IMG/VR virus record: IMGVR_UViG_3300026094_000847
Location: 1-63,589 of that record
Reading direction: 5' to 3' (one strand)
Length of the DNA stretch: 63,589 nt
Source of the DNA: a virus
The notes beneath the pieces are model-generated. The model was not told the DNA's origin and made no database searches. It saw only the letters and a program-made list of their open reading frames with translations. A program made the position numbers and the translations under genes. Position 1 is the stretch's first letter. Every line of letters starts with the position of its first letter. Positions 15,691 to 27,390 of this stretch are shown piece after piece.

Positions 15691-15723
15691 ATACGCATAC
15701 TAACACAAAACGGAGCGAACACA

Positions 15724-15915: not shown

Positions 15916-16707
15916 ATGCCAGCCAAGAAAACAGAAACTGATGCTGAAATCGTAGAGCGTCTGCGCGAGCGATTTGAAATTCTCAATCTCATGACAGCCG
16001 CTGTGAAGTCAGGCGAAGTACGAGCTATGATTGTTACTGGACCACCGGGCGTGGGCAAGTCGCACGGCGTACAGGAAACTCTCGCCAAAGACGACATGTT
16101 TGCTGCACTGGGCAATCGCGCTCCCAAGTACGAGTTTGTTAAAGGTGCTATGAGTGCAGTAGGACTCTACGCCAAACTGTACGAGTATTCAGCTCGAGAC
16201 GAAGTACTGGTGTTTGACGACTGTGACTCAGTGCTGATGGACGACTTATCGCTTAATATCCTAAAAGCCGCGCTGGATTCAAGCAAGAAGCGAATGATCC
16301 ATTGGAACACGGATTCGCGCAGTCTGCGAAGTGAAGGCATTCCGCATTCGTTTGAGTACCAAGGTGGTGCTATCTTTATTACGAACTTGAAGTTTGAAAA
16401 CGTCAAGTCAAAGAAGCTGAAAGATCACCTAGAAGCACTTGAGAGTCGCTGTCATCACATTGATCTGGGCATGGACACGGATCGTGAAAAAGTACTGCGC
16501 ATTCGCCAGATCGTAGAAGATGGCATGCTGGACGCATATGAACTCAGCCGAGACGTCAAGCGTGACATCGTAGAGTATGTGGTAGAGAACCGTGAGCGAC
16601 TGCGTGAGCTCAGTCTGCGAAGTGTGTTGAAGATTGCGGATCTCGCACGTGCCTATCCAGATCGCTGGCGTAAGATGAGTGAAGTCACTGTGATGCGCAG
16701 GCACTAG
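15916..16707 (+). CDS. AAA+ family ATPase
   Basis: A 263-residue protein. Walker A is TGPPGVGKSHG (around 42-52), Walker B VLVFDDCDSVL (around 94-104), followed by a sensor-like FITNL. GGAG precedes the ATG. The rest is helical with many arginines, consistent with a small AAA+ lid. It is the largest protein of the early array. A role in host DNA or phage DNA metabolism is plausible; nothing in the sequence names a target. Confidence 0.85.
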   Translation: MPAKKTETDAEIVERLRERFEILNLMTAAVKSGEVRAMIVTGPPGVGKSHGVQETLAKDDMFAALGNRAPKYEFVKGAMSAVGLYAKLYEYSARDEVLVFDDCDSVLMDDLSLNILKAALDSSKKRMIHWNTDSRSLRSEGIPHSFEYQGGAIFITNLKFENVKSKKLKDHLEALESRCHHIDLGMDTDREKVLRIRQIVEDGMLDAYELSRDVKRDIVEYVVENRERLRELSLRSVLKIADLARAYPDRWRKMSEVTVMRRH

Positions 16708-17362: not shown

Positions 17363-17400
17363 GTATATAACAGTTAGGGCAAAGGCATTAGGAGCGAACT

Positions 17401-18115: not shown

Positions 18116-18145
18116 GTAACTACACTGAACAATTAGGAGCGAGCA

Positions 18146-18355: not shown

Positions 18356-18385
18356 GTACTTACACTGAACAACTAGGAGCGAACC

Positions 18386-18849: not shown

Positions 18850-18877
18850 AGAGTAGGGCAAACACGGAGCGAACACT

Positions 18878-19276: not shown

Positions 19277-19491
19277 TGGGATATGCCGCAATGCCAGCAG
19301 TTACTCCACAGTGGGAACAGGGCTCGCGAGAAAGCGAAGGACTGGAAGGTCCGTTCACATATCCCAATGGCAGAGTTCTGTTCTACGATCGCTGGGAGGG
19401 CGAATACTGGGATCCCTACACCGACCTGTATGTAGATCGCAGCGAGGTCGCACAGCTGCAGGCAGAGATCGTAGACATGATTAGGGGTTGA
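19276..19491 (+). CDS. Small protein, unknown function
   Basis: A 71-residue protein from a GTG that overlaps the upstream stop (TAGTG). Aromatic-rich centre (YDRWEGEYWDPYTDLYVD). Its TGA stop is part of the next -35 box. Confidence 0.55.
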   Translation: MGYAAMPAVTPQWEQGSRESEGLEGPFTYPNGRVLFYDRWEGEYWDPYTDLYVDRSEVAQLQAEIVDMIRG

Positions 19492-19538: not shown

Positions 19539-19727
19539 GTGAGATCATATCGTTTTACATTTGATGTACACTGTGTGGGGTCGGGCTCAGCAGATCTTGC
19601 ACAGGTCGAAAGCATGATTGATCTCGCCATGCAAGAGTTGATCTACGATGACACGTTCGTAGCTGCTCTAGACGAGAACGAGGCTGTAACCATCCAGGTA
19701 AATAGGGTTGACACAGCCGATGAATGA
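19539..19727 (+). CDS. Small protein, unknown function
   Basis: A 62-residue protein from GTG after TTGGAGG. Its last codons (RVDTADE) carry the -35 box of the small-RNA promoter. Not recognised. Confidence 0.6.
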   Translation: MRSYRFTFDVHCVGSGSADLAQVESMIDLAMQELIYDDTFVAALDENEAVTIQVNRVDTADE

Positions 19728-19736
19728 CTGTACAAT
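19708..19736 (+). promoter_or_regulatory. Promoter of the candidate small RNA
   Basis: TTGACA, 17-nt spacer, TACAAT. Unlike the other array promoters it lacks the GGGCAAA/GGAGCGA leader downstream. Confidence 0.75.
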
Positions 19737-19742
19737 TTTCGT

Positions 19743-19878
19743 GAACTTTGATAGTTGTGACAAATTACAAGTTCCCACCGAATCAGCCGCCCGGCTGATA
19801 GCCATGGAATCCGATTCGCTCCCGGAGCCCATGGCACCCGGAGCACTCCCCCGCCCTCGGGAGTGCTCCACCCTTTTT
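19743..19878 (+). ncRNA. Candidate structured small RNA of about 136 nt
   Basis: A promoter-to-terminator unit with no plausible gene. Hairpin 1: ATCAGCC (19782-19788)/GGCTGAT (19793-19799). Then GCCATGG (19801-19807) pairs with CCATGGC (19829-19835), enclosing two small hairpins (AAT/ATT at 19808-19816 and GCTC/GAGC at 19818-19828), so a three-way junction. Last is an 11-bp terminator stem. The first 38 nt are unpaired and could serve as a seed. Any target is unknown. Confidence 0.6.
19840..19878 (+). terminator. Rho-independent terminator of the small RNA
   Basis: GGAGCACTCCC (19840-19850) and GGGAGTGCTCC (19859-19869) form a perfect 11-bp stem, followed by ACCC and five T. Confidence 0.85.
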
Positions 19879-19895
19879 CCAGCAGAGTCGATTCG

Positions 19896-20300
19896 ATGAA
19901 CTACTTGATCGACTTTGCTATTTTTGTTCTAGGTTGTGCGGTAGGCAGTGCTGTTACCACACGCATTGCGGGCCGGGCACTGGGCAACCTACTGAACGAA
20001 TTCAATATCGGCGATCGTGAAATCAAACAGAAAGCACGAGAGTTAGGAGTTGACGTCAGTGAGTTCTATCCAGAAGAAACAGAAGAAGACGCTGTGCGAG
20101 AAGTCACTGTGGAAAAGATCAATGACAACTACCTTGCCTATCATTATGAAACAGACGAGTTTATTGCACAGGCCAGCACACCCCAACAGTTGTTTGAACG
20201 GTTGGTAGAATACTTTCCCGCCAACACTCGAGTCAACATTGACATTGATCGTGGCGGACACTACTTCGAAGATCTAGTAGACAAGGAAGAACCAAAATAA
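19896..20300 (+). CDS. Small membrane-anchored acidic protein
   Basis: A 134-residue protein. Residues 1-25 are hydrophobic (MNYLIDFAIFVLGCAVGSAV), a likely N-terminal anchor, followed by an acidic cytoplasmic domain. No promoter or good ribosome site lies between the upstream terminator and this ATG, so it depends on read-through or an unseen promoter. Not recognised. Confidence 0.6.
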   Translation: MNYLIDFAIFVLGCAVGSAVTTRIAGRALGNLLNEFNIGDREIKQKARELGVDVSEFYPEETEEDAVREVTVEKINDNYLAYHYETDEFIAQASTPQQLFERLVEYFPANTRVNIDIDRGGHYFEDLVDKEEPK

Positions 20301-20425: not shown

Positions 20426-20457
20426 GTAGATACACAGTTAGGAAACGGAGCGACACA

Positions 20458-21722: not shown

Positions 21723-21756
21723 AGTATCAAGAGTTAGGGCAAAGAGGGCGAACAAC

Positions 21757-22516: not shown

Positions 22517-22548
22517 GTATATAACAGTTAGGCAATTGGAGCGAGCAT

Positions 22549-22881: not shown

Positions 22882-22910
22882 ATACATATAGTGAAGTTAA
22901 GGAGCGAACA

Positions 22911-23069
22911 ATGACAGACTACAGAGATTTTGCAATTGAGTTGGTTGAAGAGATGGGCTACTCCGCAGAGGATATGCTCACAGCCTGCTTGAAGTATATG
23001 AGCATGGACGATGTTGAAGACATGTTACACTGTAACGAATATCCAACACCTTGCGAGGAGGATGCATAA
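22911..23069 (+). CDS. Small acidic protein, unknown function
   Basis: A 52-residue acidic helical protein (MTDYRDFAIELVEEMGYS) after AAGGAGCGA. The longer upstream frame lies across the promoter and is rejected. Its stop overlaps the next ATG. Confidence 0.6.
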   Translation: MTDYRDFAIELVEEMGYSAEDMLTACLKYMSMDDVEDMLHCNEYPTPCEEDA

Positions 23070-23815: not shown

Positions 23816-23848
23816 GTAGACACACTGTTAGGAAAAGAGGGCAAGACT

Positions 23849-24250: not shown

Positions 24251-24282
24251 GTAGACACTTAGGGCAAACCAGGAGCGACACA

Positions 24283-24516: not shown

Positions 24517-24548
24517 GTACATGAACACTAAGGCAAGAGGGCAACGCA

Positions 24549-24875: not shown

Positions 24876-24907
24876 GTAGACACTTAGGGCAAACCAGGAG
24901 CGACAAG

Positions 24908-25340: not shown

Positions 25341-25371
25341 GTATAAACACTGAACGAACAGGAGCGACACA

Positions 25372-26137: not shown

Positions 26138-26169
26138 GTAGACACTTAGGGCAAACCAGGAGCGATAGA

Positions 26170-26768: not shown

Positions 26769-26800
26769 TTATAAAAGTTAGGGCAAAGAGGGCAAACACC

Positions 26801-27360: not shown

Positions 27361-27390
27361 GTAAACAGTTAGACAACAGGAGCGAACAAC

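Follow-up and report, generated by a model that had tools for sequence, protein, structure and literature searches.

Positions 19743–19878 of an uncultivated phage contig (IMG/VR record IMGVR_UViG_3300026094_000847; its whole length of 63,589 nt was analysed and is called the window) very probably encode a real non-coding RNA. The reading we favour with good confidence is that this element is a phage-encoded, trans-acting antisense RNA, which would use two loops on shared leaders to repress the phage's own array genes. This reading draws on sequence and comparison, namely on the predicted structure, its covariation, the complementarity of loops and leaders, and the co-variation of the two. An earlier note on this DNA had suggested that the RNA may act on host or phage mRNA or bind a protein; loop-leader pairing narrows that range to the mRNAs of the phage's own array. 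The 63.6-kb record is possibly a fragment of a larger genome. By eye, the translations of two of its ORFs (386–1579 and 2353–2940) resemble an ALAS/KBL-type aminotransferase and a ClpP protease.

The elements found around the RNA, all of which lie on the plus strand, give good support to the view that it is a structured small RNA with a promoter and a terminator of its own. A consensus scan recovered the sigma70-type promoter at 19708–19736 that had been claimed before (TTGACA at 19708–19713, a 17-nt spacer and TACAAT at 19731–19736), with a score of 11 out of 12. Promoters of such score occur 45 times in the region versus 14.7 ± 3.7 times in shuffled sequences. The promoter overlaps the 3' end of the ORF 19539–19727. 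With a 5' end inferred from the -10 box, the proposed RNA measures about 136 nt (~19743–19878); transcripts started at the promoter at 19488 (gene 19539–19727) would contain the same region as their 3'UTR. The intrinsic terminator at 19840–19878 is likewise as described, with a GC-rich 11-bp hairpin (19840–19869) followed by TTTTT (19874–19878). It is the strongest terminator-like site of a 16-kb stretch that holds 11 such sites, a number not above chance (11.6), and its exact sequence was absent from all other viral contigs scanned. The earlier note had seen only one open frame, and the element indeed has a single plus-strand ORF of at least 40 codons. It begins at the TTG of the -35 box and runs for 63 codons, without a ribosome-binding site and without a relative in PHROGs. 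DNA searches of named phages with the element region gave no match. An Rfam search of the window and eight relatives returned tRNAs only; the element is in no Rfam family.

The RNA folds far better than expected from its composition, with a folding energy z of -8.25 with and -5.18 without the terminator, and none of 200 shuffles folded as well. The fold begins with a hairpin at 19743–19774, which the earlier note did not contain and for which no match to leaders was found. It is followed by a 7-bp hairpin (AUCAGCC/GGCUGAU, 19782–19799) that had been predicted before, and by the anti-leader hairpin at 19801–19835. The outer stem of the latter, GCCAUGG/CCAUGGC, pairs 19801–19807 with 19829–19835, as the earlier note had it. 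That note had drawn this stem as the closing helix of a three-way junction with two inner hairpins. Both the minimum-energy and the centroid fold show one inner hairpin, in which UCCG/CGGA closes a 9-nt loop, AUUCGCUCC, and AA/GC lies between the inner and the outer stem. As the folds and the geometry of the relatives favour a single inner hairpin, the three-way junction was rejected.

The same geometry and a covarying stem were found in 23 other sequences. The earlier note had suggested looking for stems that are kept while their sequence changes, and this is the pattern we observed. Among the 24 sequences with the geometry of the window, a set chosen for pairing, the covariation score was 0.541 versus 0.152 in shuffled alignments (0 of 500 as high), and all seven outer pairs carried changes on both sides. 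In 97 distinct copies not selected in this way, the outer helix measured 6.95 bp versus 4.26 bp with swapped partners. Covariation was also detected in class 1 alone and in class 2 alone, and was weaker in class 3 (P=0.038). Because the outer stem covaries, the structure is supported as RNA, which argues against a coding reading.

Between 15600 and 28500, the window contains an array of small genes without a known function. Strong sigma70-type promoters, nearly identical to each other, occur there at least 19 times, and the leaders are uniform and fall into two types. Two loops of the RNA are reverse complements of these array leaders, a feature that the first reading of the sequence had missed. 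Loop A (AUUCGCUCC, 19814–19822) is the reverse complement of the type-1 leader GGAGCGA(A), whose core GGAGC is also the Shine-Dalgarno sequence, so that part of this complementarity is common to any anti-Shine-Dalgarno sequence. Loop B (CCGCCCUC, 8 nt, 19851–19858), situated in the terminator loop, is the complement of the type-2 leader GAGGGC(G); this match was noticed post hoc, and its support outside the window comes from one genome (L004). The earlier note had stated that the leader common to the other array genes is missing from the element. GGAGCGA is absent as such, yet it is present there as its complement.

Thirteen nearby genes carry the type-1 leader, all on the plus strand. It reads GGAGCGAA at 15712–15719 (gene 15724), 17391–17398 (gene 17401), 18376–18383 (gene 18386), 18866–18873 (gene 18878), 22901–22908 (gene starting at 22911) and 27379–27386 (gene 27391). 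The form GGAGCGA stands at 18136–18142 (gene 18146), 20447–20453 (gene 20458), 22538–22544 (gene 22549), 24272–24278 (gene 24283), 24897–24903 (gene 24908), 25361–25367 (gene 25372) and 26159–26165 (gene 26170). Four genes on the same strand carry the type-2 leader, as GAGGGCG at 21744–21750 (gene 21757) and as GAGGGC at 23837–23842 (gene 23849), 24537–24542 (gene 24549) and 26788–26793 (gene 26801). Altogether, 15 of the 17 promoter-proximal array starts match loop A by at least 7 nt or loop B by 6 nt. Elsewhere in the window, a 7-nt match to loop A was found at none of 27 plus-strand and one of 38 minus-strand starts. Type-1 leaders with loop A gave calculated duplex energies of -13 to -14 kcal/mol and type-2 leaders with loop B of -13 to -16 kcal/mol, compared to only about -5 kcal/mol for loop A with three of the four type-2 leaders. 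Since AGGGC occurs about 10 nt upstream in several type-1 leaders, one RNA could hold the leader and the upstream AGGGC together, in antiparallel order.

The family extends to other phages, where anti-leader hairpins were found directly behind an AAA ATPase gene. The window encodes this ATPase at 15916–16707 (plus strand; PHROG 1250, a homologue of the T4-like nrdC.10). In the closest relative, L002, the unit behind the ATPase gene shares CTCCGATTCGCTCCCGG with the window element and differs in its outer stem (CACUGC/GCAGUG) and its terminator. L002 retains homologues of both genes that flank the RNA in the window, with no RNA between them; its own unit lies about 4.5 kb upstream of these homologues, right after the ATPase gene. 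Because L002 keeps the neighbours without the RNA and has its RNA behind the ATPase, the RNA is independent of the downstream gene.

A scan of viral contigs for the motif CCGATTCGCTCCCGG, which by design fixes the loop and the CCG/CGG stem, yielded at least 120 loci. Among the matches listed, a T-run followed the hairpin at 92 loci; 81 of these 92 had GGAGCGA leaders on the same strand, and 11 had no leader in the sequence examined. At these loci, again among the matches listed, 338 leaders were on the same strand as the motif versus 9 on the opposite strand. As control, three other 15-mers with the three other bases at one loop position gave 113 loci and 16 leaders in 958 kb. This control goes back to a scan with CCGATTDGCTCCCGG for further loop variants, which produced chance matches except for the L010 contig. 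The sequence GATTCGCTCC occurred 31 times in 21 records versus once for the reversed control, a few of the 31 occurrences being reverse complements of the leaders GGAGCGAATC. Sequence comparison indicates that the hairpin is restricted to phages with matching leaders. L011 has a hairpin and GGAGCGA in none of its nine promoter-linked leaders. At five loci (L106, L108, L109, L119 and L128), CCGGGAGCGAATCGG stands on the strand opposite to the motif, immediately upstream of an ATG or a few bases away from one; these leaders match loop A over its whole length and could place their own Shine-Dalgarno sequence in the loop of a hairpin.

The hairpins were located behind three genes, encoding the ATPase, a winged-helix protein of about 90 aa (HTH_39 match just under the cut-off) and a protein of 100 aa that belongs to no known family. 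In L083–L201, the winged-helix and 100-aa genes carry the hairpin in the 3'UTR, and their own leaders (AAAGGAAA or AAAGAGG) are non-matching. A tblastn search of the phage record collection revealed no relative of these two genes. For the gene downstream of the RNA (19896), tblastn in phages gave only two matches with E values of about 0.1, and a pattern scan of viral contigs gave no relative; the L002 homologue was visible by eye. Relatives that share only an array gene (L395–L420) had neither GGAGCGA leaders nor elements. In the cultured ATPase-bearing phages PA5oct, Acj9 and S13, the hairpin was absent and no convincing match between leader and 3'UTR was seen. A genome scan for the ATPase identified one distant MAG contig, which gave no host clue.

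The main evidence is that loops and leaders co-vary among phages. Loci for this analysis were found with the ATPase protein as the only bait, not by motif, and each ATPase gene's leader was compared with the hairpins behind its stop codon. Besides the pair GGAGCGAA/UUCGCUCC, several other pairs emerged. In L010, ten leaders read GGAGCAAA and five loops read UUGCUCC, one of which is the full UUUGCUCC. L048, L059, L065 and others combine GGAGCUAG with the loop CUAGCUCC, and L052/L062 combine GGAGGAGCAA with UUGCUCCUCC. In L004, the leader GAGGGCA (5 leaders) meets the loop UGCCCUC; in L074, GGAGAGA meets UCUCUCC. L018/L020 and L026 have 12-nt pairs between ATPase leader and 3'UTR whose leader part lies upstream of the Shine-Dalgarno sequence, and between these two versions two flanking letters differ on both sides. 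Compensating changes, as expected for a trans-acting antisense sRNA, were seen on both sides of the pairing, for GGAGCAAA in one contig (L307 being the same contig as L010) and for GAGGGC in two genomes. Of all records examined, only L004 and the window have GAGGGC leaders at least twice, and both have GCCCUC loops. Behind the ATPase gene of L052, L060, L062 and L074 we observed very large pyrimidine-rich loops, for example CACUUGCUCCUCCUCUCUCCUCCAAG, on a long stem and with several CUCC repeats; in L060, the loop and its own leader agree poorly at the positions that vary.

Across 20 hairpin-bearing ATPase 3'UTR units, the loop matched its own leader by 6.5 nt on average, compared to 4.95 nt for the leaders of other phages, and none of 20,000 permutations was as good. 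Without selection for hairpins the signal was smaller (P=0.0015 with and P=0.003 without the GGAGCGA group, at 75% clustering). A generic search for more leader-loop pairs in lineages with other leaders gave none, only reverse complements of leaders.

Whether the hairpins would act in trans or in cis may differ between the genes that precede them. The leaders of the winged-helix and 100-aa genes match the loop by just 3–4 nt (38 of 38). Among the other promoter-linked leaders at those loci, 124 of 292 match by at least 7 nt. Because their own leaders do not match, the copies behind these two genes could not act on their own gene and would act in trans, if at all; the genes that bear the hairpin in their 3'UTR seem to be spared. 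The window RNA follows gene 19539–19727, whose leader, GGAGGCAAA, is likewise non-matching (4 nt). In the GGAGCUAG group, usually only the ATPase and at most one other gene have the leader, and since it is nearly confined to the ATPase, pairing may occur in cis there. Self-control in the ATPase arrangement may be the older form.

Autoregulation mainly in cis, with 3'UTR hairpins pairing to the 5' leader of the same mRNA, ancestrally that of the ATPase, is an unlikely account of the window RNA, although the 3'UTR loop does match its own leader in many ATPase genes and the GGAGCUAG group has hardly any other gene with the leader. The window RNA is a separate unit behind a gene with the non-matching leader GGAGGCAAA, the own leaders of classes 2 and 3 do not match either, and for the L010 loops the array leader GGAGCAAA is a better fit than the leader of the ATPase itself, GGAGCATA. 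Cis autoregulation is probably the ancestral form rather than the mode of the window. We regard it as quite unlikely that the hairpin is primarily a site for a phage or host RNA-binding protein, such as a repressor that also binds the leaders, with complementarity as a secondary matter. With a shared site, one would expect loop and leader to have the same sequence, but they are reverse complements rather than similar and change jointly in several lineages. What a protein site would account for is the constant 9-nt loop and closing G-C pair on very different stems, a constancy that includes the first hairpins of tandem pairs, which the search did not select.

Also very unlikely is a cis-acting attenuator or riboswitch, in which promoter, structured leader and terminator control read-through into gene 19896–20300. 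In favour of such a device, 27 nt separate the terminator from the ATG at 19896, and we saw no further promoter in that interval. Linkage to the downstream gene is not kept, however: the L002 homologue lacks such a leader while the L002 hairpin unit stands behind the ATPase, and in relatives the units come after three different genes, immediately followed by the terminator and then by unrelated genes. Moreover, the folds show no anti-terminator that uses the conserved loop, and co-variation of loop and leader would go unexplained. A general anti-Shine-Dalgarno RNA aimed at host mRNAs is just as improbable. Loop A contains CUCC, and anti-Shine-Dalgarno loops of this kind in bacterial RNAs act on many mRNAs; here, the conserved part extends past the Shine-Dalgarno sequence into CGAA, and loops track the leaders of the phage itself, even where these lack GGAG, as GAGGGC does. 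Hardly credible is a short protein gene of 63 codons or a leaderless peptide. The frame 19708–19899 is uninterrupted, and its end overlaps the next gene in ATGA, yet its start codon is the -35 box and it has neither the ribosome-binding site nor the PHROGs relative of a gene. The L002 unit shares only a 17-nt stretch with the window element, which leaves no conserved frame, and the covariation of the stems is that of an RNA.

In its proposed mode of action, a trans-acting antisense RNA of the phage, the element resembles several known RNAs. C-rich loops of Staphylococcus aureus RNAIII and other UCCC-loop RNAs pair with Shine-Dalgarno regions of several mRNAs. The window RNA shares C-rich hairpin loops complementary to such regions, whereas RNAIII belongs to other organisms, is much larger, has cellular targets and has no repeated co-varying leader. 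The CcsR or cuckoo RNAs have the loop motif CCUCCUCCC. The CcsR-type RNAs of Alphaproteobacteria are described as 3'UTR-derived anti-Shine-Dalgarno RNAs (PMC8625941). Hairpin loops with an anti-Shine-Dalgarno sequence are common to CcsR1 and our element; the latter is phage-encoded, has AUUCGCUCC and CCGCCCUC in place of CCUCCUCCC, and its loop tracks a phage-specific leader. The Rfam model of CcsR1 (RF02791) matched the window weakly, with 20 bits versus a gathering score of 65.3, which does not make the element a member.

Among phage RNAs, c4 of P1 and P7 acts as an antisense RNA, and its loops base-pair with a phage mRNA around the ribosome-binding site (PMC12197685). Loops complementary to the ribosome-binding region of phage mRNAs are found here as well, a likeness in mode of action and not in membership: the Rfam C4 model had no match at the gathering score in the window and eight relatives, nor at E≤10 in the element, and no relation to c4 in sequence was detected either. 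Moreover, c4 adjoins an ant/kil antirepressor operon, which it targets, whereas the array genes next to our RNA matched nothing in Pfam and no PHROG with a known function. While c4 targets one mRNA (ant) in immunity, the leader addressed here stands on a dozen or more genes, and the loops sit in covarying hairpins and a terminator. PreS of lambda and VpdS of vibriophage VP882 are further phage-encoded regulatory RNAs active in infection (PMC12197685). In contrast to the window RNA, they depend on Hfq, PreS acts on host dnaN and VpdS on host and phage mRNA levels, and neither has a common-leader regulon. A literature search that covered few subscription journals found no phage RNA aimed at an array-wide leader and no such co-evolution of loop and leader.

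In the mechanism we propose, loop A would pair with the leader GGAGCGA(A) and loop B with GAGGGC(G/A), the two leaders that promoter-proximal genes share within the small-gene array of the phage itself. The Shine-Dalgarno sequence would thereby be covered and translation blocked, and the whole array would be shut off together once the RNA accumulates. We infer expression as a separate RNA, pairing in the cell and the timing of this event; repression is favoured over activation because the pairing sits on the Shine-Dalgarno sequence. More tentatively, the leader could serve as an 'address' that drifts jointly with its reverse-complement RNA as a lineage code, so that a set of genes is shut off at a defined time and, perhaps, mRNAs of co-infecting relatives are told apart; we consider this extension possible, though doubtful.

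In the common view, lytic phages control the timing of their genes chiefly at the level of transcription. If our interpretation is true, the element would be a post-transcriptional master switch, with one RNA matched to a leader that is repeated over an array, and with joint evolution of loop and leader in many uncultivated phages. This would suggest what the leaders repeated in small-gene arrays may be for, and it may provide a set of orthogonal RNA regulators.
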